Assembly: GCA_003661185.1 (NCBI GenBank)
Contig: QMVQ01000018.1
Span: 1 to 14,174, forward strand
Source: Candidatus Alkanophagales archaeon
GTDB lineage: Archaea > Halobacteriota > Syntropharchaeia > Alkanophagales > B39-G2
Direction of reading: 5' to 3'
DNA length: 14,174 nt
Shown: piece after piece, positions 442 to 14,116 of the stretch
How positions within the stretch are numbered: position 1 is the stretch's first letter
Layout of the letters: each line of letters opens with the position of its first letter
Program-made: the position numbers and the translations under genes
Notes under the pieces: model-generated
Told to the model about the DNA's origin: nothing
The model's database searches: none
Seen by the model: the letters and a program-made list of their open reading frames with translations, nothing else

Positions 442-462
442 CTCCATCCCCAGGTTTTTTTC

Positions 463-476: not shown

Positions 477-481
477 CTCTA

Positions 482-841
482 AACTTACCAGCATTAAGAA
501 TGCCCACCCGTCCCCGCCGCCGGCGCGGTTCGCCACGAGGAGAATGGGAATCAACACCTTCGACACCCGCTCAAAGGAGACAACCCGCAGATAACTAAAC
601 ATATGGGTGTGAGGCGAAACGAGACTACATGACTTATCCCCTCTGCATCGGGTCTAAAGAGAGCCTGCCACCACATCCACAACACCACAATGCAATACCT
701 GAGATTCAACGAACCTTCATAAGGGAGCACCCGCAATCCTCGATGGCGCCCCGCGGCTACAAGCTGATATGCCTCGAAATTTCGCATAGACAAAATCATT
801 AAGCGGACAAGCTAAATACCCATGAACATTAAATAAAAAGG
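482..841. other. 360-bp intergenic segment without a credible gene
   Basis: This stretch separates the divergent beta-helix gene and carA. Short open frames exist on the minus strand (82 codons ending at 551, and two overlapping ones), but their products are rich in Arg, Trp and Cys, lack domain character, have no good ribosome binding site, and overlap each other. Visible structure includes a small GGCG/CGCC hairpin at 522-534 with a five-base loop, ACACCC (563-568) able to pair with GGGTGT (605-610), a CCTT/AAGG hairpin around 713-723, and a ten-base palindrome CGAAATTTCG at 775-784. The last 50 bases hold the carA promoter. The rest could be a decayed mobile element or a structured RNA; I do not recognise it as a tRNA, rRNA, SRP or RNase P RNA. 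Confidence 0.5.
809..820 (+). promoter_or_regulatory. TATA-like element upstream of carA
   Basis: The sequence GCTAAATACC is centred about 28 nt upstream of the carA ATG at 842, which suits a near-leaderless archaeal transcript. A second A/T-rich run (ATTAAATAA, 828-836) lies too close to the start codon to serve as a TATA box. The base before the ATG ends in AAGG, a poor Shine-Dalgarno site, in keeping with leaderless expression. Confidence 0.3.
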
Positions 842-1939
842 ATGCAAGCGATACTGGCACTTGAGGACGGCACGCTCGTGGAGGGCGAGGGCTTCGGCTA
901 CCCGAAGGTTGCGACCGGCGAGCTTGTGTTCGCAACGCCGATTACGGGCTATGAGGAAGCACTGACCGACCCCTCCTACAAAGGGCAAATTCTCATGCTC
1001 ACGTATCCGCTCATTGGGAACTACGGGGTCAGCGGCGCCAGATTCCAATCAGATGGGATAAAAGTGGAGGGCTTCGTCGTCCGTGAGATATGCGAGCGCC
1101 CGTCGCACTACAAGTCGAAGACGACTATAGACGAGTTTTTGCACTCGGAGGGAGTCCCTGGAATCTGTGAAGTGGATACAAGGATGCTCACGATAAAGAC
1201 GAGGCATTACGGAACGATGAAAGCATGTCTCATCGTGAAGGAGGAATTAAGCGACGCCGACAGAGAAAAAGCGCTGGAGCTTGCAAAGACGCAGCCTGAC
1301 ATCTCGGAGCTCGACTTGATAGAGCAGGTAACTTGCCGAAAGCCTTACAGAATTAAAGGCTCTGGAAAGAGAATTGCGGTGCTGGACATGGGCATCAAGC
1401 ATAACATCCTGAAGAGTTTAGAGCGGCGTAATCTCGACATTTGCGTGTTCCCGGCGGGGACGCCCCCCTCCGAGATCGAGAGCGTGGAGCCCTCCGCCAT
1501 CCTGCTTTCCAACGGTCCCGGCGACCCTCAGCGCGGGAAGAACGCCATAAACGTCGTAAAGCATTTCTTGGGGCGGCTTCCGATATTTGGGATATGCTTA
1601 GGACATCAGATAATAGCGTTAGCGCTGGGCGCCTCCACATACAAGCTGAAGTTCGGGCATCGGGGCGCAAACCAGCCCGTCAAGGACTTCGAGCTCGGAA
1701 AGGTATTTATAACGTCACAGAACCATGGCTTCGCTGCCGCCGAAGAGTCGTTGGCAAACGCCGAGGAAGGGACGCGGGTTACACAAATAAACGCCAACGA
1801 CCTGACAGTTGAGGGCTTGGAAAACCAATATTTGGGCGTTTACTGTGTGCAGTATCATCCTGAGGCGAGCCCCGGGCCTTGGGATACCGAACGCCTTTTC
1901 TTCGACAGACTCGTCAGGACCGTAGAGGCGTGGCATTAG
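842..1939 (+). CDS. carA: Carbamoyl-phosphate synthase small (glutaminase) subunit
   Basis: CarA hydrolyses glutamine and channels ammonia to CarB for carbamoyl phosphate synthesis, feeding pyrimidine and arginine biosynthesis in the cytoplasm. The 365-residue protein has the usual two domains. Residues 1-150 are the CarA-specific N-terminal domain (ATPITGYEEALTDPSYKGQ near 31-49, RHYGTMKACLI near 121-131). Residues about 175-360 are a class I glutamine amidotransferase with LLSNGPGDP near 221-229, nucleophile Cys252 in GICLGHQ, FGHRGANQPV near 261-270, and the His339/Glu341 dyad in QYHPEASPGP. Length and motifs are complete. The start codon has no strong ribosome binding site and probably sits on a leaderless mRNA. 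The large subunit gene carB, normally next to carA, is not in the window; the gene downstream is on the other strand. Confidence 0.97.
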   Translation: MQAILALEDGTLVEGEGFGYPKVATGELVFATPITGYEEALTDPSYKGQILMLTYPLIGNYGVSGARFQSDGIKVEGFVVREICERPSHYKSKTTIDEFLHSEGVPGICEVDTRMLTIKTRHYGTMKACLIVKEELSDADREKALELAKTQPDISELDLIEQVTCRKPYRIKGSGKRIAVLDMGIKHNILKSLERRNLDICVFPAGTPPSEIESVEPSAILLSNGPGDPQRGKNAINVVKHFLGRLPIFGICLGHQIIALALGASTYKLKFGHRGANQPVKDFELGKVFITSQNHGFAAAEESLANAEEGTRVTQINANDLTVEGLENQYLGVYCVQYHPEASPGPWDTERLFFDRLVRTVEAWH

Positions 1940-2022
1940 TCCTTATGAGCGCGGACTTCGGCATCGGTTTCTCCGTCGTGCGAAATACTGCTCGTTAGCG
2001 TGCGTCAAAGCGTCTTAGCGGT

Positions 2023-2604
2023 TCAGATGCGCTTCCGCCGCATCACAGCGAGCGCAAAGGCGACTACGCAGACTGCAACCTCAAAGCCGGACGGCGTCGG
2101 GCTGCGGTTCGCCGCTGGCGCCGACGGTAGCGTCACTGTTGGTGTTGCTGTTGCCGCAGACGGTGTTCCCTCTACCGTCGTCGTCACGGCGGCTTCTGCC
2201 ACAATTTTCTCGGCTAAATCTTTGATGTCTTCTGCTGAACTTTTAATTTCCTCCGCAAGAGTTCTGATTTCTGAGGTGGGAACTTCGATTTCCCCGACAA
2301 GGCTCTTGACGTCTTCGGCGAGAGTCACTATCTCCTCAGCTTGAGACTCAGCAGCGGGGTCGGCTCCCGCAACGTCCTCGGCTAAAGCCTCGATATCCCC
2401 AGCCAACGCCTCAATCTCAGCGATTAATCCCTCAATATCTTCAACTGAAGCCTGAACGCTCGTAGCCGCCACCTTAACCTCAGCGCTCAACTCAATGATG
2501 CTCGTCGCCGAGGTCTCAGTATCAGCCGCTGCAACCGCAGATGCTAAGACTGTCGGAGCTACGAGGGCTAATACGCAACACGTAAGCGCAACTAAATGCG
2601 TCAT
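2023..2604 (-). CDS. Secreted coiled-coil surface protein with PGF-CTERM-like sorting signal
   Basis: No enzymatic domain is recognised. The 193-residue product starts with a signal peptide (residues 1-27, hydrophobic LVALTCCVLALVAPTVLASA). Residues about 35-138 form a long acidic helix with heptad-like units (IEGLIAEIEALAGDIEALAEDV, SEIRTLAEEIKSSAEDIKDL), predicted coiled coil. A Thr/Ser/Pro/Ala-rich stalk follows (139-172), probably glycosylated. The C-terminus is PSGFE, a hydrophobic segment (VAVCVVAFALAV), and RRKR, the layout of archaeosortase A substrates, whose usual signature is PGFE; here Ser sits between Pro and Gly. The open frame extends 31 codons upstream, but the ATG at 2604 is chosen because the signal peptide begins there and a TATA-like GTTAAAAG is centred about 27 nt upstream. 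The protein is probably anchored to the cell surface as a stalk or adhesin-like element. Confidence 0.72.
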   Translation of the reverse strand: MTHLVALTCCVLALVAPTVLASAVAAADTETSATSIIELSAEVKVAATSVQASVEDIEGLIAEIEALAGDIEALAEDVAGADPAAESQAEEIVTLAEDVKSLVGEIEVPTSEIRTLAEEIKSSAEDIKDLAEKIVAEAAVTTTVEGTPSAATATPTVTLPSAPAANRSPTPSGFEVAVCVVAFALAVMRRKRI

Positions 2605-2624
2605 GCTCTTATTCTTTCGGTCTT

Positions 2625-2636
2625 CACTTTTAACGG
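2625..2636 (-). promoter_or_regulatory. TATA-like element for the coiled-coil surface protein
   Basis: GTTAAAAG on the minus strand is centred about 27 nt upstream of the ATG at 2604. This spacing supports the shorter start and a leaderless transcript. It lies in the 67-base divergent spacer shared with the plus-strand gene at 2672. Confidence 0.35.
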
Positions 2637-2671
2637 TAATGTTATTTCCGAGAACTGTCATCAAAATTTTA

Positions 2672-3598
2672 ATGCCGAGTGTTACCTTCGTGGGCAAGGT
2701 TCTGAGGGCGCTGCCGTCGGCGGGCGGCGAGGGCGTCAGAAGCCTAATCCTCGCAAATGAGTGTGGTTACGTCCGTGCTTTCTTCCGAGACGAAAAGGTG
2801 GAGCTTCTTGATGGAATAAACGTTGGCGACGTCCTCCTCATTGAAAACGCTTACGTCGGCAAAAAAGCGACGAAAACCATCAGAGTTGGCAAATACGCAA
2901 AGGTCAAAAAGCTTGACTTGGACGTTAAGGCATTGCGGGACGTCAGAGCCACGTATATCACGACGCTTGCTGTTGCCCGTCCTGAAAGCAACCACGTCTG
3001 CGTCGCCGGCATCGACGAACATGGAAACTGGCTTCGCCTTCAGTCGATTTATGAGGAGGACATCTTCTCACATGGCGGCAGCGAGCCGAATTTCAGAAAC
3101 TTCTACGTCTCTAAAGTTTACGTGGACGAGTGGCACGGCAGAAACCCACGGTTGGAAGACCGCTTTTTCATTTTCGGTGAGGGTGTCGTCAGGGAGCTGA
3201 ATGATGAGGAGAAGAAGAAGTTTTTAGAAGAGCATTTGGACAGGTCGGTGGACGCCGTCTTCAAGAGCGGGCGGACACTTGGGCTTATAAAGCCGAAGAT
3301 TCTGCGGGCTTACGAAGACCGCCGTCGTGGGGGGCGGAGCTACGGGCAATATATAAAATTTGACTTCAGGGACGGCACCGGTAGGCTCTTCCGGCGTTGG
3401 TCGTGCCGCTGTCTCGCATTCTACGACTTCTGGAATGATTTCAAGAGGCAGAAACGCCTCTTCTTCGGCTACCGCATGTTAAGGTTTCTACGAAAACATG
3501 ATGTTTACTTCTGCATCGGGCTGACGCACTCGGACTACGGCTTCAAAAACCTTGAATACGGGGCGTTCCCAATGGTTGTCGGCGTGCATGTCATTTGA
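2672..3598 (+). CDS. RPA-like OB-fold protein fused to a possible dual-OB domain
   Basis: The 308-residue protein has two parts. Residues about 4-80 resemble the OB fold of archaeal replication protein A: VRSLILANECGYVRAFFRD, then LLDGINVGDVLLIENAYV, then TKTIRVGKYAKV, the order seen in RPA single-strand DNA-binding domains. Residues about 92-308 resemble, from memory, the dual OB-containing domain family: an N-terminal CVAGIDEHGNWLRLQSI, a central LGLIKPKIL (203-211), and a C-terminal IGLTHSDYG...FPMVVGVHVI. Two RRRGGR/FRRW patches (about 217-243) are strongly basic and could bind nucleic acid. The frame runs further upstream, but that part is the antisense of the surface protein gene; the ATG at 2672 begins where OB homology begins. 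Function is unknown; nucleic-acid binding is an inference. The gene is monocistronic here. Confidence 0.7.
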   Translation: MPSVTFVGKVLRALPSAGGEGVRSLILANECGYVRAFFRDEKVELLDGINVGDVLLIENAYVGKKATKTIRVGKYAKVKKLDLDVKALRDVRATYITTLAVARPESNHVCVAGIDEHGNWLRLQSIYEEDIFSHGGSEPNFRNFYVSKVYVDEWHGRNPRLEDRFFIFGEGVVRELNDEEKKKFLEEHLDRSVDAVFKSGRTLGLIKPKILRAYEDRRRGGRSYGQYIKFDFRDGTGRLFRRWSCRCLAFYDFWNDFKRQKRLFFGYRMLRFLRKHDVYFCIGLTHSDYGFKNLEYGAFPMVVGVHVI

Positions 3599-3635
3599 TG
3601 CGTTGTGCGGCTCGCTCGTGCTTGGTGTCGGCACC

Positions 3636-3647
3636 GCTGACGTCAGC
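3636..3647. repeat. Perfect 12-bp palindrome between convergent genes
   Basis: GCTGACGTCAGC is a perfect palindrome that overlaps the guaA stop codon (3643-3645) in the 44-base gap between the convergent gene at 2672 and guaA. Just before it is GGTGTCGGCACC (3624-3635), itself a near-perfect inverted repeat. Together they could fold in transcripts from either side and help end transcription, but there is no T-tract, so a protein-binding site or chance is also possible. Confidence 0.4.
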
Positions 3648-5175
3648 AAGGCTCGATGGTGGACGGCGGCTTCGATGAGATTGCGTAGGCGACCCACGTA
3701 ACGCCTTTGACCTCGTTAGTTATTCTTCGGCTGATGTTTTCGAGCACGCCATACGGCAGTCTGGCGAAGTCGGCGGTCATCGCCTCTACGGACTCGACGA
3801 CACGCACGATGACGACGTGTCCGAGAACTCGCTCGTCGCCGAGGACGCCTGTCGCAAGGTCGTCGCCGACGATTGCGAACGCTTGCCAGACCTTATCATA
3901 CCAGCCGCTCCTCCGCAGCTCCTCCTCGACGATGAACGAAGCTTCCCTGCAAATCCGCAGCTTCTCCTCAGTAACCTCGCCAATAATGCGGGCGGCGAGC
4001 CCCGGACCGGGGAACGGATGCCGCTTTATTATCTCCTCAGGGAGCCCCAATTCCTTTGCTATTTCTTTAACTTCGTCCTTGTAGAGGTCCTTTATCGGCT
4101 CTACGAGCTTGAGGTTCATCTTCTTGGGGAGCGCTGCCACGTTGTGGTGTGATTTTATCCTCGACGCCCGCCTGCCACTTTGCGCTCGTGCACTTTCAAT
4201 TCTGTCAGGGTAGATGGTGCCCTGAGCGAGAAAATCCACCTTGCCAAGCTTCCGGGCTTCCTCCTCGAAGACACGGATGAACTCCTCGCCGATAATCCAG
4301 CGCTTCTCCTCAGGGTCGCTCACGCCGCGTAGTCGTCGCATGAAACGCTCCCTCGCATCAACGTGCACGACTCGCAGCTTCAGCTTTTTAAAAGTTTCCA
4401 GGAGCTCTTCAGTCTCGTTTTTCCGCATGAGCCCGTGATCCACATAAATGCAGGTCAGGTTCTCGCCGACCGCCTTGTGCACAAGGAGCGCCGTCGTTGT
4501 GGAGTCAATGCCTCCGCTGAGCGCGCAGATTACCTTCCCGTCGCCGACCTCTCTTTTGACCTCTTCGATGGCACGCCGCACGAAGCCCTTAAGTTCCCAG
4601 TTGCGCTGCAAGCCGCAAACTCGAAACAGGAAATTCCCAATAATTTCTTTGCCGCTCTCGGTGTGATGCACTTCGGGGTGGAACTGCACGCCGTAAATGC
4701 GGTCGGCGAGGCGGAAAGCAGCGAGCGGCGAGTGCTCGGTGTGCCCAAGAACTTCAGAATTTGGTAACGATTCTATCCTGTCGCTGTGCGACATCCAGAC
4801 CGTTAATTTCTTGCGTATGCCATGAAACAGCTCGTCTTCACGGTCCACGAAAAACTCGGTTCTGCCGAACTCTCTTTGCTCCGCCCGCCGCACGACGCCG
4901 CCTTTGAGGTGTGCGATGAGCTGCGCACCATAGCAAATTCCTAAAATCGGGACGCCGAGCTTGAAGACCTCGAGGTCGCACATCGGTGCATCGCGCTCAT
5001 AAACGCTCTTCGGACCGCCTGAGAAGATTATTGCTTGTGTCCCCCCCTCTACAAGACTCTCAGCGGAAACGTCGTGCGGGAAGAGCTCGGAATACACGCC
5101 AAGCTCTCTACACCTCCTGACGATGAGATGCGCATACTGCCCGCCGAAGTCCAGCACCGCGACCTTCTGCCGCAT
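3643..5175 (-). CDS. guaA: GMP synthase (glutamine-hydrolysing), single-chain form
   Basis: GuaA converts XMP to GMP with ATP and glutamine, the last step of guanine nucleotide synthesis. With the ATG at 5175 the protein has 510 residues, normal for one-piece GuaA. Residues 1-190 are the class I amidotransferase: KVAVLDFGGQYAHLIVRR, nucleophile Cys81 in GICYGAQ, His166/Glu168 in QFHPEVHHTESG. Residues about 195-380 are the ATP pyrophosphatase with the PP-loop SGGIDS (220-225) and QGTIYPDRIES. The C-terminal dimerisation domain holds RHPFPGPGLAARI and ends KPPSTIEPC (usual KPPATIEWE). The frame extends 32 codons upstream, but GGAG six bases before 5175 and the start of homology favour this ATG; 5187 and 5229 are alternatives. 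Many methanogens split this enzyme into two genes; the fused form is typical of bacteria. Confidence 0.96.
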   Translation of the reverse strand: MRQKVAVLDFGGQYAHLIVRRCRELGVYSELFPHDVSAESLVEGGTQAIIFSGGPKSVYERDAPMCDLEVFKLGVPILGICYGAQLIAHLKGGVVRRAEQREFGRTEFFVDREDELFHGIRKKLTVWMSHSDRIESLPNSEVLGHTEHSPLAAFRLADRIYGVQFHPEVHHTESGKEIIGNFLFRVCGLQRNWELKGFVRRAIEEVKREVGDGKVICALSGGIDSTTTALLVHKAVGENLTCIYVDHGLMRKNETEELLETFKKLKLRVVHVDARERFMRRLRGVSDPEEKRWIIGEEFIRVFEEEARKLGKVDFLAQGTIYPDRIESARAQSGRRASRIKSHHNVAALPKKMNLKLVEPIKDLYKDEVKEIAKELGLPEEIIKRHPFPGPGLAARIIGEVTEEKLRICREASFIVEEELRRSGWYDKVWQAFAIVGDDLATGVLGDERVLGHVVIVRVVESVEAMTADFARLPYGVLENISRRITNEVKGVTWVAYAISSKPPSTIEPC

Positions 5176-5253
5176 GCCCTGCTCCATCCTGTCAAATTCG
5201 TCTCCCGGAGTTAAAATGGTGCTGCTCATCGGACACGCTTTGCCCGCGCCTAA

Positions 5254-5274
5254 CGAAAAGATATAAATCATGTT
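5254..5274. promoter_or_regulatory. Shared BRE/TATA region for the cdh operon and guaA
   Basis: On the plus strand CGAAAAGATATAAATC has the form of an archaeal BRE (purine-rich CGAAAAG) followed by a TATA box centred near 5264. Initiation would fall near 5290, about 30 nt before the ATG at 5322. On the minus strand the same element reads TTTATATC behind AAAAACATGA, so it could also drive guaA leftwards. A second candidate for the plus strand is ATTATCTATAG at 5280-5290. Read by eye only. Confidence 0.45.
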
Positions 5275-5294
5275 TTTCCATTATCTATAGTTGT

Positions 5295-5313
5295 GCCCCA
5301 TGGGCCTTTGGGG
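5295..5313 (+). promoter_or_regulatory. Hairpin that could mask the ribosome binding site of the cdh operon
   Basis: CCCCA (5296-5300) can pair with TGGGG (5309-5313), and the 3' arm overlaps the GGGGTGG Shine-Dalgarno region of the gene at 5322. The same 5' arm can instead form GCCC-CAT-GGGC (5295-5305), which would leave the ribosome binding site free. The two folds exclude each other, a switch-like layout. The stems are only 4-5 bp, so this could be chance. Confidence 0.3.
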
Positions 5314-5321
5314 TGGTAAAA

Positions 5322-5543
5322 ATGGGCGGTTTATGTGAGTTGTGTGGGAAAGGAGATGCTGTGAACGAATGCAGCGAATGTGGCGCCAAAATATGCGACT
5401 CCTGCACGAAAGAGGTATCTTACGAGGAATTTCACCCCGGATACAGGATGAAAGGCGAATCCTTTATAGGAGCGATGAGTGAGGGTGTTGTGAGGAAAAA
5501 ATTGTGTCTGAAGTGCTTTGAGGAAGTAGATTTGTTGGGGTGA
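5322..5543 (+). CDS. Small double-zinc (four CxxC) protein leading the cdh operon
   Basis: The 73-residue protein has eight cysteines in four CxxC pairs: Cys5/8, Cys17/20, Cys25/28 and Cys62/65. The order and spacing suggest a cross-brace fold binding two zinc ions, like B-box or FYVE-type fingers; the GYRM region between the third and fourth pairs is a loop. No known family name is certain. An upstream in-frame GTG at 5313 exists, but the ATG at 5322 with GGGGTGG five bases upstream is the better start. The stop codon TGA overlaps the GTG start of cdhA (GTGA), so the two are likely translationally coupled. Its place as first gene of the operon implies a role in making, regulating or assembling the CODH/ACS subunits; this is inference from context only. 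Confidence 0.8.
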   Translation: MGGLCELCGKGDAVNECSECGAKICDSCTKEVSYEEFHPGYRMKGESFIGAMSEGVVRKKLCLKCFEEVDLLG

Positions 5544-8083
5544 CGTTTTTGTTGCCTAATTCTCGGAACGATTTAGATACTCCCGTGGCGACTGTCGGGA
5601 AGACTTCGGTGCGGATATGCGATGTCGTGAGGGATGTAAGAGGAATAGAAAGCATCGTGAAACGAGCGATAGAAGACCCGGACTTCGGGTGGCCCGAGCG
5701 GAGGCTGCAGCAAGTCGAATGTCATTTGCACATCTTTCCGTCTGCGAAGGAGCTTGAGGACTGGGATGGCTTCTTGCTGGGTAGATACCCGCCCGTATAT
5801 TCGCCGAAGTCCTCGAGATGTAACGACTGCATGCTTGGTGTCTGCGACTTGAGTCGGGAGCGGGGGGCGTGCGGCATCGACTTGAAGACAAAATGCGCAA
5901 GGGACAGCCTGCTCGACGCCTGTAAGGGGGCTTCCCAGATGATTTCTCACGCAAGAGCGCTGCTCAACGAAGCACTAAAGCGTTTTGGTAGAGATAAAAG
6001 GATAAGTCACGGAAAAAACGTAAGATACCCATCAATTAACACGATGCTCTTCACGGGGACGCCGATATACACGCTCGGCGATGCCGACGACGCTTTAAGG
6101 TATGCGGAGGAGCAGCTGGTTGAGCTCCTTGCGGCGGCGTCGCAGGAGTCCAACGTTATCGACTTGGAAAGCAAGGCGTTCCATGCCGGCTCGATGTATT
6201 TGCTCGCCGGTGAGGTTGCGGAGCTTGTGAAGGAGGCATGCTTCGGGCTTTGCAGCGCCGCCGACCGGGAACTTGTGGAACTCCCGAACTTCCCGCATTT
6301 CATAGAACGTGGCATCGGCGCCCTCGACCTTGAGAAACCCGTCGTGCTCTTCGTCGGAAATTCTTTCCTCGTAGGCATAGCGGCTGTTGACTTCGTGCGG
6401 GCAAGTGGGCTTGAGGACGAAGTCCAGATATGCGGCGTTGGACAGATGGGGCTCGACCTCGGACGTTATTACGAAAAGACGAAGAATCTCGGCGGCGCCT
6501 TGAAAGTTTTAAGGGTCTTGCGTGCGGGAATTCCTGACGTTATTGTCGTCGGCGAGCAATGCGTCCCGGCAAACATCTTGGAAGAGGCTAAGAAAACAAG
6601 GACAGCAGTCGTCGCAGTCTCGCAAAATATGAGCATGGGCTTGAAGGATAGGACCGACGCCGCTCTTTCCGAAATCGCAAATGCGTTGATAAGCGGCGAG
6701 GAGGCGGGCGTGCTCATACTGAACCCGAAGAAGGCGGCAGAGGTTGCTGTGAAGGTTGCAAGAGAGCTTTCAAGAGGTAGGAAGAAATTTGAGCTGCCAG
6801 GGCTGGAGGCTGCAGAGAAATGCGACGGCTGCGGCGCCTGCGACGACGCTTGTCCGAACGACCTTGAGGTTTCGGCTGCGGTGCTTGCCGCAAAGGAGGG
6901 GCGTGCTAATGAATTATCCGAGATTTACGACGATTGCTTGTTCTGCGCAAAGTGCGAAAGCGTCTGCATTGCGAGAATTCCGATAGTCAGCTTGGTCTTG
7001 AAAGCAGCCGTGGACAAAATGCGTGCGGAACGCTTTAAGATGCGCCCGGGCAGGGGCACGCCGTCACATTTGGAATACAGGGACGTGGCATACGCTTTTG
7101 GCTTCGGAACTGTCTCGGGCATGGTCGCAATCATAGGCTGCGGCGCTGGGAACGAGCAGGACGTCGGTTACATGGTGAACGAGCTCGTGGACATGAACTT
7201 CCTCGTGCTGACTGCGGGGTGCGTCGCCGCCGACATTGCGTCGTTTTACAATGAGGTGGAGAAGAAGCATTTGTATGAGGCGTGGGCGGCACTCCTCCAG
7301 ATACGGGGCTTTTTGAACTGCGGCTCGTGCTCGGCGTTCAGCCACGTCGCAAGGGCATTTATAAAATACAACCACTTAATCGCACGGCTGCCTCTCCTCG
7401 GAAACTTCGAAGAGCACGCCGATTACACCCTTGGCAAGATGCCCATGGGCGTTATAATCTGGGGACCAGCGTCGCCGCAGCTCTACGCGGCAGCTGCTGG
7501 TTTTGCACGCCTCGGGGCGCCCGTCGTCCTCGGACCACACGGCTGGAAGTTCCAGCGGTTCTTACTGGGTAACGTCGAAGACCGCAGCAAGTGGTGGGCA
7601 TACGACGGCTTCACCGGGCGTAAGGTGGAAGTTGACCCGGCGCCTCCGCATCTCATCATACCCGTCGAGACGAAGGAAGAGGCGCTCACGATGATTACGA
7701 GGCTTGTCTTCCGGGTCAATGACTTCAGGGACGGACGCATGTCGAAAATGGACAGCTATTGGTCGTTCTACGAGCGCTTCTTCAACAGCATCCCCGAAGA
7801 TTTCCACCTCTACGTGCGGGCGGACGCTGAGCTCCCGTGGACGAGGAAGCACAAGATGATAAGGATTCTCGGTGAGAAATACGGCTGGGACGTTGACAAG
7901 CGGCGGGGCTTGATAATAAGGGCTAAACACCGGGATGGGAGGCTCCTAACGCCTGAAGAGTATGCAAGAGATTACGGCATAAGAGTGGGGCAATATTCGA
8001 CGTTTTTAGAGCGGCTGATAATAAGGGAGGCGGCGAGGCGGGGGGAGCTCGCGGACGCCGATAAGAAGGACGAGGAGTGGTAA
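5540..8083 (+). CDS. cdhA: CODH/ACS complex alpha subunit (CdhA-like) with altered C-cluster ligands
   Basis: CdhA normally interconverts CO and CO2 at a Ni-Fe-S C-cluster and passes electrons through clusters B, D, E and F in the archaeal CODH/ACS complex. This 847-residue protein aligns along its length. Present: B-cluster set Cys94, 97, 102, 111; ferredoxin-like E set Cys428, 431, 434, 438 and F set Cys466, 469, 472, 476; cubane ligands Cys341 (EQC), Cys534 (IIGC) and Cys561 (TAGC); nickel-type Cys597 (CGSC); catalytic-type Lys670 (GPHGWK). Altered: the GHN His is Asn274 (VGNS), the GLCC pair is Gly301-Gln302, the histidine track reads Met134/His137/Ala140, and the two D-cluster Cys are Ser and Asn. 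GTG at 5540 overlaps the upstream stop; cdhB follows directly. A basic/acidic C-terminal tail of about 50 residues looks longer than usual. Family sure; CO chemistry doubtful. Confidence 0.93.
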   Translation: MTFLLPNSRNDLDTPVATVGKTSVRICDVVRDVRGIESIVKRAIEDPDFGWPERRLQQVECHLHIFPSAKELEDWDGFLLGRYPPVYSPKSSRCNDCMLGVCDLSRERGACGIDLKTKCARDSLLDACKGASQMISHARALLNEALKRFGRDKRISHGKNVRYPSINTMLFTGTPIYTLGDADDALRYAEEQLVELLAAASQESNVIDLESKAFHAGSMYLLAGEVAELVKEACFGLCSAADRELVELPNFPHFIERGIGALDLEKPVVLFVGNSFLVGIAAVDFVRASGLEDEVQICGVGQMGLDLGRYYEKTKNLGGALKVLRVLRAGIPDVIVVGEQCVPANILEEAKKTRTAVVAVSQNMSMGLKDRTDAALSEIANALISGEEAGVLILNPKKAAEVAVKVARELSRGRKKFELPGLEAAEKCDGCGACDDACPNDLEVSAAVLAAKEGRANELSEIYDDCLFCAKCESVCIARIPIVSLVLKAAVDKMRAERFKMRPGRGTPSHLEYRDVAYAFGFGTVSGMVAIIGCGAGNEQDVGYMVNELVDMNFLVLTAGCVAADIASFYNEVEKKHLYEAWAALLQIRGFLNCGSCSAFSHVARAFIKYNHLIARLPLLGNFEEHADYTLGKMPMGVIIWGPASPQLYAAAAGFARLGAPVVLGPHGWKFQRFLLGNVEDRSKWWAYDGFTGRKVEVDPAPPHLIIPVETKEEALTMITRLVFRVNDFRDGRMSKMDSYWSFYERFFNSIPEDFHLYVRADAELPWTRKHKMIRILGEKYGWDVDKRRGLIIRAKHRDGRLLTPEEYARDYGIRVGQYSTFLERLIIREAARRGELADADKKDEEW

Positions 8084-8085
8084 CT

Positions 8086-8532
8086 GTGATTGTGGACGTA
8101 GAGGGGGCCGTAAGGGTTTTGAGGGATGCAAAGAAGCTGTTAATCCTCGTGGGCTCGCGGCTGGACGGCGATATTCTGAGCACGGTCGTGAAACTGGCGG
8201 AAGGTTTAGGTGCAAAGGCAGGAATTGCCGCAACTGGAAACACGGCTGCGCCATTGAGGGAAATGGGCATTGACGCCGGTAAGGAATGGACTGCGGAGGT
8301 CGTGAGCCGTATGCTGCATTCGGAGGGAGATAAGCCTGACCTCCTGGTTTTTGTGGGTTTTTACTCCTTCGTGCTGAGCGGCGTGCTTTCTACGTTAAAG
8401 CATTTTGCGAGTTGCAAGACTCTGGCGTTGGAGCGTAGGCGTTTTGAAAATGCGGACTTCTCGCTCTCTGAAATGTCAAAAGAGGCGTGGAGGGATGCGT
8501 TGATGAGGATTGCTGAGGGGGTGATTAGATGA
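8086..8532 (+). CDS. cdhB: CODH/ACS complex epsilon subunit
   Basis: CdhB (epsilon) forms an alpha2-epsilon2 unit with CdhA in archaeal CODH/ACS; its fold is a DHS-like NAD/FAD-binding fold and its role is thought to be structural or in electron transfer. The product of about 148 residues opens with AVRVLRDAKKLLILVGSRL, typical of the family (a parallel-sheet strand and glycine turn), then GLGAKAGIAATGNTAAPLREMGID and PDLLVFVGFYSFVLSGVLSTLKHF. Of three in-frame GTG codons (8077, 8086, 8092), 8086 is chosen: GAGGAG at 8072-8077 lies eight bases upstream, and it starts just after the cdhA stop. The gene ends in an ATGA overlap with cdhC, so translation is coupled. The family call rests on context plus this motif pattern; sequence conservation in this family is low. 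Confidence 0.85.
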   Translation: MIVDVEGAVRVLRDAKKLLILVGSRLDGDILSTVVKLAEGLGAKAGIAATGNTAAPLREMGIDAGKEWTAEVVSRMLHSEGDKPDLLVFVGFYSFVLSGVLSTLKHFASCKTLALERRRFENADFSLSEMSKEAWRDALMRIAEGVIR

Positions 8533-9920
8533 TAAGAACGCCGGCGGACCACAAGCTCCCGAGGGGGAGGGAATATTGGGCGCCTGTGGATGACATAGAG
8601 CGATTGTTTGACGAGTTGCCGACCGAGATTTCGCCAAGGTGGGCGGGCGAGCGAATCCCGAAAAAGGACATGTGGGTCGAGCTCGGCGGCCCAAAGCATG
8701 ACTACAAGAGCTTTTACCTCATAGAAAAAAGAGACCCGAAGGAGATAGAGCATGGAAAGATTGAGATTGTGGGACCTGAGCTCAGCGAGCTAGAGGAGGG
8801 CATGAGCCTGCCTTTCGGCTATTACCTCATCGTCGGCGGCGAACGTCTCCAAGAGGAGCATGTCAGCTACTTCGAACGCTGGGCGATGGATAATCACGTC
8901 AAGCAAGAAGGCATACTCTGGCTCAACACTCGCAATATGGTCTGGGCGAGAATTCACAAGCGGCTGAAAGGTAGAATTGACTCCTTCAAGTATTTGCCTT
9001 GGGCAGCGATGGGTATGTTCCTGTCGCAGCTGCCCACAATCATTGACGCCATCGAGGCGAAGATGATAATAGCATCGCCAGAAATCGGCGGCAAGGAGCT
9101 CATCGCCGAAATCATAGAACAACAGTGCAAGCCAATATGGGATGCTCGAGACGCGCGGGCTATGGAGATGCGGGACGAGGAGGCTGATGTCTTCTACGGC
9201 TGCACGCTTTGTCAGAGCTTTGCGCCGAACCACTGCTGCGTCGTTACGCCGGACAGGACGCCCTTCTGCGGCGTGCTGAACTGGCACAACACCCGGGCAT
9301 GCCTCGACGTGGACCCGCAGGGCTACTGCTTCATCATCCCCAAAGGCGAGTGCATAGACCCCGTCGCCGGCAGATACACAGGTGTGGACAAAGCCGTTTA
9401 CGAGCGCACGAACAGGACAATACGGCACGTGAACCTGTATTCCGCCATAAAATACCCGATGACGTCGTGCGGCTGCTTTGAAGTTCTGGTGTTTTACATT
9501 CCTGAGCTTGACGGACTCGGCATCGTGAACCGCACTTACAAGGGCTTAACGCCTTTAGGGCTGAAGTTCTCAACAATAGCCGGCATGTGCGGCGGCGGCG
9601 TCCAGTATCACGGCTTCTGCGGCGCCTGCGTGCTCACGCTCAAAAGCCCAAAATTCCTCGGCGGCGACGGCGGCTGGGACCGTGTTATCTGGATACCCAA
9701 GGATTTGAAGATGAAGATTGCCGACGCCATCCCGGAGACGCACTTCCACCTCATAGCGACTGAGGAAGACGCTGTCGAGCCCGACGAGCTTAAAGCTTGG
9801 CTGAAAAAAGTCGGACACCCTATCGTGAAGAGGTTTTGGAAGAACGGCGAGCCGACGCCGCTGCAGCTACCAGGTCCTGGCGAGTTATGGCCCGAAGACA
9901 AAGCGGAAGAGGCGCCTTGA
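8529..9920 (+). CDS. cdhC: Acetyl-CoA synthase/decarbonylase beta subunit with complete A-cluster
   Basis: CdhC assembles or cleaves acetyl-CoA from a methyl group, CO and CoA at the Ni-Ni-[4Fe-4S] A-cluster. The 463-residue length is that of archaeal CdhC, which lacks the N-terminal CODH-binding domain of bacterial AcsB. A-cluster cubane ligands are Cys225, Cys228, Cys237, Cys247 (FYGCTLCQSFAPNHCC...FCG), and the distal nickel motif is Cys314-Gly-Cys316 (TSCGCFE). Spacings 3, 9, 10 and 86 (Cys228 to Cys314) equal those I recall for the Methanosarcina thermophila protein (Cys189/192/201/211/278/280). Other family marks: MWVELGGPK near 48-56, FYIPELDGLGIVNR, AGMCGGG, SPKFLGGDGGWDRVIWIPK, and a C-terminal GHPIVKRFW. 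A strong GGGGGTGAT ribosome binding site lies inside the end of cdhB. No cdhD or cdhE follows; the next gene is convergent. Confidence 0.97.
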   Translation: MIRTPADHKLPRGREYWAPVDDIERLFDELPTEISPRWAGERIPKKDMWVELGGPKHDYKSFYLIEKRDPKEIEHGKIEIVGPELSELEEGMSLPFGYYLIVGGERLQEEHVSYFERWAMDNHVKQEGILWLNTRNMVWARIHKRLKGRIDSFKYLPWAAMGMFLSQLPTIIDAIEAKMIIASPEIGGKELIAEIIEQQCKPIWDARDARAMEMRDEEADVFYGCTLCQSFAPNHCCVVTPDRTPFCGVLNWHNTRACLDVDPQGYCFIIPKGECIDPVAGRYTGVDKAVYERTNRTIRHVNLYSAIKYPMTSCGCFEVLVFYIPELDGLGIVNRTYKGLTPLGLKFSTIAGMCGGGVQYHGFCGACVLTLKSPKFLGGDGGWDRVIWIPKDLKMKIADAIPETHFHLIATEEDAVEPDELKAWLKKVGHPIVKRFWKNGEPTPLQLPGPGELWPEDKAEEAP

Positions 9921-9950
9921 GGCACTTCCTAAAACGATGCTCAAAGCAGC

Positions 9951-9974
9951 GCCCTGAAGCAAGCAGCTAAGGGC
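9951..9974. terminator. Candidate bidirectional hairpin between convergent operons
   Basis: GCCCT (9951-9955) pairs with AGGGC (9970-9974), and inside it AGC (9958-9960) pairs with GCT (9966-9968) around a five-base loop, giving a bulged hairpin. It lies in the gap between the end of cdhC and the end of the minus-strand operon and overlaps the stop codon of the latter. There is no clear T-tract on either side, so the call is tentative. Confidence 0.3.
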
Positions 9975-10452
9975 ACCTGCTCAGAAACTCTCTTATTTTC
10001 ATTTTTTGCGCCCTTTTCGCATCTTCAAGTTTTTTGGCAAGCTCCTCACTCAGGGCGACGCCTGTTGCCAGCCTTAAAATTTCAACGTATGAGACAAGCT
10101 CTTTTTCCAAAAGTAGCTCGTAACAACGTTGAATTTCTTGCGCATCGACATCAGGGGCGACTGCCGTCAGCTCGTGCAACACTCCTATCTTCTCTACGCT
10201 CTCTCTTGGCTTAACCGTCATCTGAGCAAAGAGCTTTGCGTAGGCGTTCTGAATGATGCCACCCTCAAGCTTCGGCAGGAAGCCCACGAGCTTCACGAGC
10301 CTCGCAACGCCGTGCACCAAGCACTTTTCGAGAAGCCGCTCGCACTTCTCACGAACGCCCGCTTCAAGCTCCCGCCTCAATTTCTCATAGGCGGCGGCGT
10401 CCGCTTCTGCTTCTAACGCCTCTTTCAAAGATAATATCTCCTCAATTCTCAT
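9967..10452 (-). CDS. Unknown alpha-helical protein, third gene of the cooC operon
   Basis: I do not recognise this 161-residue protein. It is almost wholly helical by composition: a charged N-terminal helix (EEILSLKEALEAEADAAAYEKLRRELE), a more hydrophobic middle (HGVARLVKLVGFLPKLEGG), and a C-terminal Lys/Glu-rich helix. Four cysteines are scattered (37, 44, 110, 160) without a metal-binding pattern. There is no signal peptide or membrane segment, so it is probably cytoplasmic. It starts at the base after the stop codon of the Cys-rich gene, with GGATGA just upstream, so the two are co-translated. Its place in an operon with a CooC-type ATPase and facing cdhC suggests a part in metallocentre assembly, an inference from context only. 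Confidence 0.7.
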   Translation of the reverse strand: MRIEEILSLKEALEAEADAAAYEKLRRELEAGVREKCERLLEKCLVHGVARLVKLVGFLPKLEGGIIQNAYAKLFAQMTVKPRESVEKIGVLHELTAVAPDVDAQEIQRCYELLLEKELVSYVEILRLATGVALSEELAKKLEDAKRAQKMKIREFLSRCP

Positions 10453-10839
10453 TCATCCAAAATAAGGATAATTCCGTTTCTTGTAACATTCCTCCTTGAA
10501 GGGGCAGCCCTCCGCCGTCCAGCATGCAAGATATGCTTCTTCGACGTATTCGTCTTCTTCTTCGTCGTAGTCCTCGAACACGAAGCGTGGCTCAAAGCAC
10601 TCATACGCATCCCAAGGGCGAATTATTCTGCCGTAGCAGTAGCCCACGCTTCCCCTTCTTATCCCTTCCACCAGCTCCTTCACCGCCTCGTCAATCTCGT
10701 AATTCCACACGGGCACCTCGACACGTCTCCCTAAGACCTCTATTACAATAACCTCGTCGCTTTTCGTCCGTTTGACGTCAAACATCGCTTTTTTCACGAC
10801 GGCACGCTCCCAATGCTTGCACGAGTAGCAACAGCGCAT
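10453..10839 (-). CDS. Unknown Cys-rich protein, second gene of the cooC operon
   Basis: The 128-residue protein has eight cysteines: Cys3, Cys4, Cys7 near the start (MRCCYSCKHW), Cys68, Cys81, and Cys106, Cys112, Cys118 near the end. Cys pairs near both termini could join to hold a metal ion or an Fe-S cluster; a very acidic stretch (YDEEEDEYVEEAY, about 91-103) precedes the last cluster. I know no family for it. An in-frame GTG at 10848 overlaps the cooC stop, but the ATG at 10839 is preferred because AGGTGA sits five bases upstream. The next gene begins directly after its stop. Soluble, probably cytoplasmic. A role in handling nickel, iron or Fe-S clusters for CODH/ACS is suggested by its partners but not shown. 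Confidence 0.72.
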   Translation of the reverse strand: MRCCYSCKHWERAVVKKAMFDVKRTKSDEVIVIEVLGRRVEVPVWNYEIDEAVKELVEGIRRGSVGYCYGRIIRPWDAYECFEPRFVFEDYDEEEDEYVEEAYLACWTAEGCPFKEECYKKRNYPYFG

Positions 10840-10844
10840 CGTTC

Positions 10845-11630
10845 TCACCTGGAACCCACGTAGGAAAATATCCTCTCTTTAATCTCGTATATCTTCTCCA
10901 CGGCTTTGCCGCCGACATCTATCGGCGCCCTCCCTTCAATGTCTGCTTTTATCAGGGCGTCGTCGTAAGGGATGACTCCGATAACTGGCATCTGCAATTC
11001 TCGCTCAAGCTTGCTTTTAAGGATTTCTATGACGCCCTCGTCGGCGCTCGCTTTGTTTATCGCAGCTACAACGTTCCTCACGCCGATGTCCGCTGCAAGC
11101 TTCTTTATGCGTTTTGCGGTCTCGACGGAACGCATCCCCGGCTCTACGATCGCCAGCATCAAATCCACGCCCCTTGCGGTGCCGCGTCCTAAATGCTCGA
11201 TGCCAGCCTCCATATCGAGGATTACAACCTTGCCGCGGAAGATAACGTGGCGGAGCAGTGCTCGCAAGAACGCATTTTCGGGACAGACGCAACCGCCGCC
11301 ACCCTTTTCGACCGTGCCCATGACGAGAAGGCGGACGCCGTCAGGGGCGATGACGCTGTATCTCATGACGACGTCGTCCACTTTCGGGTTAAGCTTGTAA
11401 ACGCCGCCATAACCACCAGCCCGCTCGTATATTAAGTCTTTAAGCTCTGAAATGGGCGTTGGAACCTCTGAAACGCCGAGCGCCGACGCAAGGTTCATCG
11501 CAGGGTCGGCATCTATGGCGATGACCTCGTAGCCCGCTCTCGCAAGCGCTCGGGCGAGCGTGCCCGCAAGCGTCGTCTTCCCGACGCCGCCTTTCCCCGA
11601 AATCGCTACCTTCACGCTTCTCTTTTGCAT
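10845..11630 (-). CDS. cooC: CooC-type nickel-insertion ATPase (MinD/SIMIBI family)
   Basis: CooC uses ATP-driven dimerisation to deliver nickel to CODH; the related AcsF serves acetyl-CoA synthase. The 261-residue protein has the deviant Walker A KGGVGKTT (13-20), AIDADPAMNLASALG (38-52) with the conserved Asp residues, a Cys114-x-Cys116 motif in GGGCVCPENAFLRALL that binds metal at the CooC dimer interface, the Walker B-like VVILDMEAGIEHLGRGT (135-151), and INKAS (191-195) for base recognition. The open frame reaches 39 codons further upstream, but the ATG at 11630 fits the family start and lies about 28 nt after a TATA-like element. It heads a three-gene operon; the next start follows its stop within five bases. 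Given the altered C-cluster of CdhA here, the client may be the CdhC A-cluster; that is inference. Confidence 0.9.
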   Translation of the reverse strand: MQKRSVKVAISGKGGVGKTTLAGTLARALARAGYEVIAIDADPAMNLASALGVSEVPTPISELKDLIYERAGGYGGVYKLNPKVDDVVMRYSVIAPDGVRLLVMGTVEKGGGGCVCPENAFLRALLRHVIFRGKVVILDMEAGIEHLGRGTARGVDLMLAIVEPGMRSVETAKRIKKLAADIGVRNVVAAINKASADEGVIEILKSKLERELQMPVIGVIPYDDALIKADIEGRAPIDVGGKAVEKIYEIKERIFSYVGSR

Positions 11631-11651
11631 GCCTGTTAATATTTTGGTGCC

Positions 11652-11664
11652 ATTAAATTTCATT
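11652..11664 (-). promoter_or_regulatory. TATA-like element for the cooC operon
   Basis: The minus strand reads GAAATTTAATGG, centred about 28 nt upstream of the cooC ATG at 11630. This spacing fits a leaderless archaeal transcript and supports that start over the in-frame ATG at 11663. Confidence 0.35.
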
Positions 11665-11683
11665 GTATAGGGTGCTGTGGTAT

Positions 11684-11708
11684 CGCCGAAGCTTTTAACA
11701 AATCGGCG
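11684..11708 (+). promoter_or_regulatory. TATA-like element flanked by an inverted repeat, upstream of the AIM24-family gene
   Basis: CTTTTAAC (11692-11699) is centred about 27 nt upstream of the ATG at 11722, as for a leaderless archaeal gene. It is framed by a perfect 6-bp inverted repeat, CGCCGA at 11684-11689 and TCGGCG at 11703-11708, with 13 bases between. A dimeric regulator binding the two half-sites would cover the TATA box and repress. No regulator is identified. Confidence 0.4.
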
Positions 11709-11721
11709 CAAAATTTGCCTT

Positions 11722-12459
11722 ATGGAATACAAGATCATTGGGGACAATCTCCAAGTTGTAGAGATTATGCTGGGCGCCGGCGAGGGGGTTTACGCCGAGG
11801 CGGGCGCCATGGTTTACATGAGCGGAAACGTCAAAATGGAAGCAAAAGCCAAAGGTGGTTTCTTAAAAGGTTTAAAACGGAAGCTCGTAGGTGAGACCTT
11901 TTTCTTGACGGAGTTCTCCACAAGTGGCGGTCCTGGTGTAGTCGCATTTGCTGGAAACGCCCCCGGCACGATTCAGCCCGTTAAAATTTCTTCGGCGGAG
12001 CGAAAAGAGTTCATAGCGCAGAAGGATGCGTTTTTGTGCGCCGAGGACGGCGTTGACCTCGGCATCACGTTCACGAAGAAGCTCGGCGCTGCCATCTTCG
12101 GCGGCGAGGGCTTCATCCTCGAAAAATTTTCGGGCGAGGGGCTCGTGTTCCTGCACGCCTGCGGCGATTTCATAGAGAAAGAGCTGAACGTCGGTGAGAT
12201 TTTGAAGGTGGATACGGGTTGCATCGTCGGCTTCGACGCCTCCGTGCGCTATGACATCGAGTTCGTCGGCGTGAAGTCCGCACTCTTCGGCGGCGAGGGC
12301 GTCTTCGTCGCTACCCTCACCGGTCCCGGCAGGGTTCTCCTGCAGTCAATGACGCTGCACAACCTCGCAGCGGCGCTCCGCCCGTTCCTGTCTGTTGGAA
12401 CCTCAGGCGCCGACCGAGAAATCGGTTTCAAGATAGGCGGCTTTAAGATGGACATTTGA
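11722..12459 (+). CDS. AIM24 / TIGR00266 family protein
   Basis: The 245-residue protein belongs to the AIM24 (DUF124) family, a beta-rich, tryptophan-RNA-binding attenuator-like (TRAP-like) fold of unclear function in bacteria and archaea, named for a yeast mitochondrial homologue. Family marks: EAGAMVYMSGNVKMEAKAKGG (26-46) with FLKGLKRKLVGETFFLTEF, the repeated glycine-rich turn FGGEGFILEKFSGEGLVFLHACG (126-148), LKVDTGCIVGFDASVRYDIE, FGGEGVFVATLTGPGRVLLQSM (189-210), and the C-terminal aliphatic strand. No signal peptide. The frame extends upstream but the ATG at 11722 matches the family start MEYKI and the promoter spacing. It is 10 bases from the next gene and probably the first of an operon with the unknown gene and trpA. 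No specific role can be given. Confidence 0.9.
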   Translation: MEYKIIGDNLQVVEIMLGAGEGVYAEAGAMVYMSGNVKMEAKAKGGFLKGLKRKLVGETFFLTEFSTSGGPGVVAFAGNAPGTIQPVKISSAERKEFIAQKDAFLCAEDGVDLGITFTKKLGAAIFGGEGFILEKFSGEGLVFLHACGDFIEKELNVGEILKVDTGCIVGFDASVRYDIEFVGVKSALFGGEGVFVATLTGPGRVLLQSMTLHNLAAALRPFLSVGTSGADREIGFKIGGFKMDI

Positions 12460-12468
12460 GGTGCGAGG

Positions 12469-12828
12469 ATGAGCTACGAAGCAGAAATAATGGGCTACCA
12501 GCTTGCAGAGCGGCTGAAATCCGGACTCATCATGGCGCAGAGGCTCATGGACGTTTTCTCCTCTCTGACGGGGGGTGAGCGTGGCGGCGCTCGGAAGATA
12601 ATGCTCACGTTCCTCGAGGGGTTGCTCAACGAGACGCAGCTTGCGTCGAATTTCACAAGCATGCAGGAGTTTGCTGAAATAGCATCGGAGTTGCGGGACG
12701 TGATGCGGAAAGTCGAGACCGACGAGCTTTCAGACAGCAACTTAAACATAGGGCGGGCGGTCTCAAGAGCGACAACTGCATGCGATGCAAAAATCAAAGC
12801 TCTGAAGGTGATTTTTGAGAATGATTGA
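12469..12828 (+). CDS. Unknown small helical protein between AIM24 and trpA
   Basis: I do not recognise this 119-residue protein. It is predicted helical throughout, with an N-terminal amphipathic helix (AEIMGYQLAERLKSGLIMAQRLMDVFSSL), a Gly-rich turn (GGERGGAR), and further charged helices ending KIKALKVIF. There is one cysteine, no signal peptide, and no membrane segment. GAGGTGCGAGG directly before the ATG is a good ribosome binding site; the gene starts 10 bases after the AIM24 gene and ends 35 bases before trpA, so the three are likely one transcript. Codon use and composition match the neighbours. It may be a lineage-specific protein; no function can be inferred. Confidence 0.72.
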   Translation: MSYEAEIMGYQLAERLKSGLIMAQRLMDVFSSLTGGERGGARKIMLTFLEGLLNETQLASNFTSMQEFAEIASELRDVMRKVETDELSDSNLNIGRAVSRATTACDAKIKALKVIFEND

Positions 12829-12863
12829 GCTACCGATGTGGCTGAGAGCGGGAGGAACTACAC

Positions 12864-13691: not shown

Positions 13692-13695
13692 GAAA

Positions 13696-14088: not shown

Positions 14089-14116
14089 TTTGCATCAACT
14101 ATTTATTATGGCTGGA

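Follow-up and report, generated by a model that had tools for sequence, protein, structure and literature searches.

What does a carbon monoxide dehydrogenase (CODH) alpha subunit do when both residues that hold the pendant iron (Fe1) of its C-cluster are missing? This question was raised by the cdhA' gene on a 14,174-nt stretch of DNA from a Candidatus Alkanophagales archaeon (contig QMVQ01000018.1, positions 1 to 14,174), which is called the window here. The window is contig C18 of a 1.69-Mb genome (G000, 86% complete), and we take its host to be a sister species of the alkane-oxidising Ca. Alkanophaga volatiphilum. On balance, we lean towards the explanation that CdhA' is a pseudo-CODH, kept as a structural partner for its dedicated acetyl-coenzyme A (CoA) synthase (ACS), the paralogue CdhC', with a remodelled pocket. 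The three genes concerned are as follows.

5540..8083, + strand: cdhA', 847 aa with a GTG start and no stop inside; putative pseudo-CODH alpha subunit, identified by phmmer to 8riu_A and 3cf4_A
8077..8532, + strand: cdhB', divergent epsilon subunit (PF02552 37.0 bits, cut-off 21; TIGR00315 63.4 bits, under the cut-off of 101.2)
8529..9920, + strand: cdhC', acetyl-CoA synthase beta subunit (TIGR00316 436.6 bits, cut-off 355.95)

The genes form an end-to-end array with overlaps of 7 nt (cdhA'/cdhB') and 4 nt (cdhB'/cdhC'); an earlier note on this DNA had described an intact frame of 847 codons in a tight operon. The phmmer search matched CdhA' to 8riu_A of Ca. Ethanoperedens (E 5.9e-153, residues 66-793) and to 3cf4_A of M. 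barkeri (E 5.9e-132), with homology across about 730 residues. Its score against the NCBIfam model TIGR00314 for cdhA was 642.7 bits, which fails the curated cut-off of 781.3, and the two canonical CdhAs of the same genome scored 1278.9 and 1029.7 bits. In the alignment, VGNS faces the canonical GHN, and GVGQ faces GICC/GLCC. The positions compared are listed below; the CODH-II numbers are those that we take to be equivalent and serve as labels only.

6359..6361, + strand: Asn274 codon, at the position of the Fe1-ligating His of canonical CdhA
6440..6445, + strand: Gly301-Gln302 codons, at the canonical Cys-Cys position, of which the second Cys is the Fe1 ligand
6560..6562, + strand: Cys341, kept; equivalent of CODH-II Cys333
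7139..7141, + strand: Cys534, kept; equivalent of Cys446
7220..7222, + strand: Cys561, kept; equivalent of Cys476
7328..7330, + strand: Cys597, kept; equivalent of Cys526, the nickel ligand
5810..5824, + strand: S91 and N95, both D-cluster Cys lost; C94 between them starts the kept B-cluster C94-C97-C102-C111
5939..5941, + strand: Met134, at the position of the acid-base His of canonical CdhA
6221..6232, + strand: E228 and K231; the usual residues of canonical CdhA here are D and Q
7079..7102, + strand: R514, Y518 and G521, equivalents of M. thermophila CODH (MetCODH) Arg500, Leu504 and Val507 (A-cluster contact and alcove)
7379..7381, + strand: Ile614, at the position of the CO-alcove Phe of canonical CdhA (MetCODH Phe601, Moorella ACS Phe229)
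7478..7480, + strand: Gln647, at the position of the catalytic Lys of canonical CdhA

The earlier note had claimed that both pendant-iron ligands are absent and that the cubane and nickel cysteines Cys341, 534, 561 and 597 are kept, and the alignment bore out both statements. It had also described the loss as limited to the pendant iron. The two ligands are indeed gone, but so are the neighbouring Cys of the CC pair, the D-cluster Cys, the acid-base His and the catalytic Lys. The B-, E- and F-cluster cysteines are all present, the assignment of B- and D-cluster having been made from CxxC spacing. A sequencing error at the ligand codons was considered and ruled out by a 90%-identity cluster of seven member sequences on five contigs and by 79 relatives that do not have the same ligands either.

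The genome was examined for other copies. A second, canonical cdhA, which the earlier note had proposed to look for, was found twice (contigs C5 and C44, with GHN and CC present). A second variant set lies on contig C33, where a CdhA' with GND and GIGA is followed by its own cdhB'- and cdhC'-like genes. The assembly of Ca. Alkanophaga volatiphilum (G001) was the sole other genome of the genus in the class search. Four matches to CdhD/CdhE (two CdhD, two CdhE-type) were found in each of G000 and G001. In G001 these share contigs with the two canonical CdhAs, in G000 they are on C51 and C90, and none was found on the contigs of the variant sets (C18 and C33 in G000). The second canonical cdhA (C44) stands behind genes for a corrinoid-binding protein and a RamA-like reductive activase (L010, 2513-7744), which are unusual partners for CODH/ACS and were named from reading the open reading frames (ORFs).

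To place these proteins, 96 CdhA sequences were aligned, of which 16 were canonical and 80 were variants, with only the roughly 8000 best candidates scored in each protein search. The canonical set consists of the returns of these searches plus the genome's two and is not a survey. Lineage 1 (7 proteins) is the window type, its six other members being 56-76% identical to the window protein over the alignment. Lineage 2 (60) is the C33 type, with named members from Alkanophagales, anaerobic methanotrophic archaea of group 1 (ANME-1) and Methanophagales. The named members of the third, partly bacterial group (13, 'bact') come from Thermodesulfobacteriota and Dehalococcoidia. Overall, the named sources of variant CdhA were thus Alkanophaga, ANME-1, Thermodesulfobacteriota and Dehalococcoidia. 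The CdhA' of class genomes account for 19 of the 96, and reduction to less than 90% identity leaves 40 of the 80 variants and 14 of the 16 canonical proteins.

The close homologues with the same changes that the earlier note had suggested searching for were abundant: 79 relatives were without both ligands. The Fe1 His was present in 16/16 canonical proteins and in 0/7, 0/60 and 0/13 of lineage 1, lineage 2 and the bact group; the Fe1 Cys gave the same counts, each Cys of the CC pair being found in 0/80 variants. In the same order, the acid-base His was present in 15/16, 0/7, 0/60 and 1/13, the catalytic Lys in 16/16, 1/7, 0/60 and 1/13 (2/80 variants), and the D-cluster in 13/16, 0/7, 0/60 and 0/13. 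All four cubane Cys were kept in 16/16, 7/7, 58/60 and 12/13 (77/80 variants). The B-cluster was complete in 15/16, 7/7, 24/60 and 12/13, leaving it incomplete in 37/80 variants, and the E and F Cys were complete in 16/16, 7/7, 55/60 and 7/13 (69/80 variants). The fragment P0019 is the canonical miss for the B-cluster and the His and one of the three D-cluster misses. Since the Fe1 ligands, His, Lys and D-cluster are gone together, the catalytic apparatus of CODH appears to have been lost as a whole, with the cubane Cys as its most persistent part. At the other extreme, P0055 (742 aa) and P0059 (717 aa) have Cys at none of the examined ligand positions, and P0069 lost one cubane Cys. E228 was found in 80/80 variants and 1/16 canonical proteins, and K231 in 79/80 and 0/16.

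Additional cysteines were also observed. Cys594 and Cys238 occur in 7/7 lineage-1 proteins and 0/16 canonical ones, Cys594 also in 1/60 of lineage 2 and 7/13 of the bact group. Cys234 occurs in all seven lineage-1 proteins, 56/60 of lineage 2, 8/13 of the bact group and 0/16 canonical proteins. In two family-f2 genomes (G008 and G010, 96% and 91% complete), the canonical-CdhA query found variant CdhA' only, besides short weak matches. Both genomes hold canonical CdhC and CdhD matches, and an assembly gap is possible.

Phylogenetic trees agreed with the residue classes. In a FastTree analysis of 99 proteins (the 96 plus those of G010, G036 and G039) with the ligand columns removed, all 83 variants fell on one side of a branch with support 100. 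Lineage 1 (support 100) and lineage 2 (99) each stayed on one side, and the bact group did not; this run carried a long-branch warning. A slower tree of 50 proteins again placed 36/36 variants on one side (Shimodaira-Hasegawa-like approximate likelihood ratio test, SH-aLRT, 100), with lineage 1 outermost and the remainder together (99).

The partner gene was then analyzed with the CdhC' of C33 as query. It was found in 26 of 58 class genomes at identities of at least 66%, the canonical paralogue being at about 40%. CdhC' was present in all 23 of the class genomes with a C33-type CdhA' (Fisher p 3e-13, a value that ignores shared ancestry), and ligand loss was checked at the residue level in all 23, with G039 represented by a partial gene. 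CdhC' without C33-type CdhA' occurred in three genomes (G041, G047 and G051, 61-87% complete). Many ANME-1 genomes have the two genes on separate contigs, and about 670 kb lie between them on a single contig of G006. These separate positions indicate that the link is not mere operon inheritance. Furthermore, the CdhC' tree (50 rows) reproduces the main division of the CdhA tree into canonical, lineage 1 and the rest, with supports of 100 and 97; the agreement covers this outline and not the order of the bacterial groups within it. Equal-sized longest contigs suggest that six CdhA'/CdhC' match pairs lie on the same contig. They include P0055 and P0059, the variants devoid of ligand Cys, whose longest contigs equal in size those of the intact CdhC' matches P0086 and P0087. 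The co-occurrence and the like-shaped gene trees support the suggestion of the earlier note that the protein serves as a scaffold for the acetyl-CoA synthase.

CdhC' itself appears to be equipped as a synthase. The sample comprised the best 120 of 3633 matches plus nine own sequences, and a tree built without the motif columns split it into 101 CdhC' and 28 canonical proteins (support 100). All six A-cluster Cys were found in 101/101 CdhC'. The His of PHTSCGC was present in 28/28 canonical CdhC and 0/101 CdhC'. The alcove residue Phe512 was kept in 21/21 CdhC' of lineages 1 and 2 and absent in 53/80 bacterial-type CdhC' (33 L, 17 I, 2 V and 1 N). The CdhC' of all 26 class genomes has the six Cys and Phe512, and the window's cdhC' encodes the six Cys, the equivalent of F512 and Met instead of the His of PHTSCGC. 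Ten proteins encoded near cdhC' in various genomes, one of them from a genome with CdhA' adjacent, were scanned and gave no functional lead. The neighbours seen were MoeA, Gins51, eIF2-alpha, a DNA methylase, a helicase, a helix-turn-helix protein, an SMC-like protein, TFIIB, Ftr and a CdhB-like gene without Pfam match.

The structure of the methanogen complex shows why such a pair may matter (papers given by PMC number are cited from the portions of their text available to us). In the M. thermophila complex, the place of the A1 domain, which the ACS subunit lacks, is filled by CODH Rossmann fold 2; CODH Arg500 touches an A-cluster residue, while Leu504, Val507 and Phe601 together with ACS Phe195 form the CO alcove (PMC11474084). 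In Moorella ACS, replacement of Phe229 with Ala lowered CO affinity thirty-fold and stopped autotrophic growth, and methylation continued (PMC11321310). The equivalent positions were mapped here through the 9c0q alignment only. The Phe601 position holds Phe in 16/16 canonical proteins and 0/80 variants. It is Ile in 7/7 of lineage 1, Gly in 59/60 of lineage 2 and mixed in the bact group, where the alignment is less certain. An aromatic residue occupies position 504 in 0/16 canonical proteins, 7/7 of lineage 1, 60/60 of lineage 2 and 5/13 of the bact group. Arg500 is present in 16/16, 7/7, 60/60 and 9/13 (76/80 variants). With the alcove Phe lost in CdhA' and the His lost in CdhC', both sides of the pocket differ wherever the CODH site was lost.

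Selection on these genes was compared between G000 and G001 by the Nei-Gojobori method (dS, synonymous divergence, 0.66-1.18). The ratio of nonsynonymous to synonymous divergence (dN/dS) was 0.041 for the C33 CdhA', 0.068 for its CdhC', and 0.054 and 0.057 for the canonical CdhAs. The window-type copy, compared over two in-frame pieces, gave a dN of 0.213 with saturated dS and a dN/dS of 0.094. This dN, against 0.036-0.056 for the other three CdhAs, corresponds to four to six times more amino-acid change. In G001 (contig C3, L050; L018, 10001-12405), the window-type cdhA' is frameshifted and truncated, its 5' part is fused into the 3' part of cdhC', cdhB' is gone, and the flanking genes have intact frames. 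P0002, from the same species as G001, is intact; its identity is 92-99% to four of the five fragments and 78% to the remaining one, which contains internal stops. The break may be real or an assembly fault. A pseudogene was rejected for the window frame and is possible in the sister species.

These observations can be combined in the following model. CdhA' would still have the fold of CdhA and, probably, a simple cubane on four Cys, with CO/CO2 interconversion gone. Ordinary CODH activity is very unlikely, because most variants are also without the catalytic His and Lys. In the solved methanogen CODH/ACS, the alpha subunit sits directly on the A-cluster and provides the CO alcove that bacterial ACS takes from its own A1 domain. 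Since CdhC has no A1 domain, an alpha subunit would be needed even if it were non-catalytic, and a dead CODH may have been kept as half of another enzyme's active site through a predicted docking of CdhA' on CdhC'. The re-shaped pocket would probably still carry out ACS-type chemistry, in which an acyl-CoA is made or cleaved at nickel, uncoupled from local CO/CO2 conversion. CO might then be exchanged with the cell's two canonical CdhA sets, and the methyl carrier may be borrowed from their CdhD/CdhE.

A narrower version, which we put forward only tentatively, is that CdhA'-CdhC' is an ACS-derived nickel enzyme independent of CO from its own CODH, with the CODH half as an active-site wall and another acyl-CoA reaction as its task, for example with an acyl group longer than acetyl. 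The altered pocket leaves open, and is compatible with, a different acyl group or CO-independent chemistry. Beta-oxidation genes have been reported in Alkanophaga and ANME-1, and a longer acyl-CoA as substrate is a guess. A general role as marker of the conversion of alkyl-coenzyme M (CoM) to acyl-CoA was rejected, as the C33 type occurs in 21 genomes of family f2, which is ANME-1, with 0-2 McrA matches each. The module, being shared by ANME-1 genomes, is therefore not specific to alkane use.

Several points weigh against a retained structural partner of CdhC'. A pure scaffold would have no use for the cubane and E/F Cys, yet most variants retain them. The window-type copy may be dispensable, because it is broken in one Ca. 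Alkanophaga volatiphilum assembly. In the third, partly bacterial group there is a single candidate contig pair for CdhA' and CdhC' (P0061/P0122), and shared ancestry may account for part of the Fisher value. Loss of the D-cluster is not specific to variants, because P0018 and P0073, which are canonical and otherwise complete, are without it too. Arg500 was dropped as proof of docking, since a CooS enzyme also has it. The CdhA trees have no CooS outgroup, so the direction of change is not shown by them; a loss, as against an ancestral lack, is probable because the ligands are general in CODHs (PMC6344411, Table 2).

The possibility that CdhA' instead carries a new catalytic or sensory cluster was judged rather unlikely. 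A [4Fe-4S] or [NiFe3S4] cubane on Cys341, 534, 561 and 597, with the E/F (and B) clusters feeding it, would carry out a redox reaction different from CO oxidation, as in hybrid-cluster proteins and CODH-V. No feature persists as widely as the four cubane Cys, which stay even where the B-cluster was lost; E228 and K231 are nearly confined to variants, and lineage 1 has the extra Cys594 three residues from Cys597. However, P0055 and P0059 have no ligand Cys at all and yet have longest contigs equal in size to CdhC' ones, the acid-base His and Lys are gone in nearly all variants, and the co-occurring partner is an ACS and no new reductase. We consider it unlikely that CdhA' is mainly an electron conduit whose ferredoxin-like E/F domain keeps the A-cluster of CdhC' reduced and active. 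The nickel of the A-cluster does require reductive activation, and the complete E and F Cys of 69/80 variants, including the window protein, would suit such a role. The earlier note had proposed a conduit as well, which fits the window protein with its B, E and F Cys but not the whole group, as the full E/F set is missing in 11/80, the full B-cluster in 37/80 and every ligand Cys in P0055 and P0059. In addition, a distance of about 35 A separates the C- and A-clusters of the methanogen complex, which puts direct transfer out of reach (PMC11474084).

Persistent CODH activity through substitute ligands, such as Cys298 or Asn274/Gln302, is hardly credible. Cys298, which the earlier note had offered as a replacement, is found in 65/67 proteins of lineages 1 and 2; however, 9/16 canonical CdhAs have it in addition to their own ligands and the lineage-1 protein P0006 does not have it, so the suggestion was abandoned. 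No donor is common to the residues found instead of the ligands (N/S/D and A/P/S/Q/N), the acid-base His and Lys were lost too, and CODH-V, with Cys295 changed to Glu, has no CO turnover (Jeoung 2022, cited in PMC13240472). A decaying duplicate with no present function is scarcely more probable, even with the frameshifted, truncated copy in one Ca. Alkanophaga volatiphilum assembly and the high dN of the window copy in its favour. Against it stand the intact 847-codon frame, the invariant Cys across the seven lineage-1 proteins, the intact P0002 of the same species and the dN/dS of the sister variant on C33. The view of the earlier note that the loss is selective and not general decay therefore holds for the group, in which 77/80 keep the cubane Cys and the C33 copy has a dN/dS as low as the canonical ones, and is weaker for the window copy, whose G001 counterpart is broken.

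Further features of the window and the genome were recorded. The following gene lies on the opposite strand to cdhA'B'C'.

10845..11747, - strand: CooC/MinD-like P-loop ATPase (Pfam CbiA, 82.3 bits), a possible nickel-insertion factor

A 224-aa repetitive ORF at 2023-2697 on the - strand is probably a coiled-coil protein; by eye, it ends in a short hydrophobic stretch followed by RRKR, resembling an archaeal surface-anchor signal. Elsewhere, a 620-aa CooS-type protein (L012, 4535-6397, - strand) has DGHE and GFIETG. By eye, the His is kept and Glu probably replaces the first C-cluster Cys, as in group D-1 (CODH-V type). A prismane-family (CODH/hybrid-cluster protein) match in several frames with one stop (L013, contig C157, 38-1230) is a pseudogene or an error.

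Textbooks present CODH/ACS as a bifunctional enzyme, and finding CdhA together with CdhC is usually taken to mean just that. Here the CODH half appears to be catalytically erased and the metal ligands of the synthase are kept, a natural experiment that would separate two roles of CODH, making CO and building the synthase pocket. A similar step has been proposed for the A1 domain of bacterial ACS, which would descend from CODH Rossmann fold 2 (PMC11474084). CODH/ACS genes of ANME-1, Alkanophaga and some bacteria should not be counted as CO2-fixing sets without a ligand check; a 2026 survey removes such sequences by a filter (PMC13240472). In Ca. Alkanophaga, the steps from alkyl-CoM to acyl-CoA and those around propionyl-CoA lack assignment in the available text of PMC10322722. 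An orphan nickel acyl-CoA enzyme would be of interest for them, and nothing here ties CdhA'-CdhC' to these steps. Clusters in ANME-1 that combine FrhB7 with genes for the CODH alpha and epsilon subunits have been reported (PMC9012536), and their CdhA may be of either type. No description of an archaeal CdhA without Fe1 ligands was found in the literature searched, which lay outside subscription papers and supplements and included text of PMC6344411, PMC13056359, PMC13240472, PMC9012536, PMC9539880, PMC10322722 and PMC12827605. As far as these searches go, the new findings are the archaeal groups, their grouping with bacterial ones, the co-inherited CdhC' with its own signature, the altered alcove and two members that have lost every ligand Cys.

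Bacterial relatives were described in part before. Inoue et al. 2019 (PMC6344411) tabulated bacterial CdhAs with incomplete C-clusters and left CODH/ACS catalysis open. Their groups A-4 and A-6 are clade A CdhAs in which the C-cluster His and first Cys are replaced (D/P; N/S), the four later Cys are kept, the D-cluster is absent and ACS genes are associated. P0008 and P0070 carry the A-4 letters, P0069 does so save for one cubane Cys, and P0062 equals A-6 save for Phe at the acid-base His. Proteins whose letters agree fully or nearly with those of A-4 or A-6, among them some of the bact group, cluster with the window protein; OIP92259 and OIP30420 themselves are not among the tree sequences. 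The window protein shares with these groups an incomplete C-cluster in which Cys2-Cys5 are retained, and the absence of the D-cluster. Its letters N,Q,M,Q match neither A-4 (D,P,Q,R) nor A-6 (N,S,H,L) exactly. In the available text of that study, A-4 and A-6 are described from bacteria only, and the archaeal members, the joint grouping, CdhC' and the alcove change do not appear.

Canonical archaeal CdhA (M. barkeri 3cf4, M. thermophila 9c0q, Ca. Ethanoperedens 8riu) shares with the window protein the long homology, the E/F insert and the CdhB and CdhC partners. In contrast to it, CdhA' has no Fe1 ligands, D-cluster Cys, acid-base His and Lys or alcove Phe, and scores under the NCBIfam cut-off. 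The Dehalococcoides mccartyi enzyme is likewise an ACS without working CODH, whose acetyl-CoA cleavage frees CO (Zhuang 2014, cited in PMC6113397). D. mccartyi is described there as having no CODH at all. CODH-V and hybrid-cluster proteins share the CODH fold with changed C-cluster ligands, and CODH-V reportedly has no CO turnover (PMC13240472). However, in group D-1 the His is still present and Glu stands in place of the first Cys (PMC6344411, Table 2), whereas the window protein combines Asn and Gln at these positions with an ACS partner.

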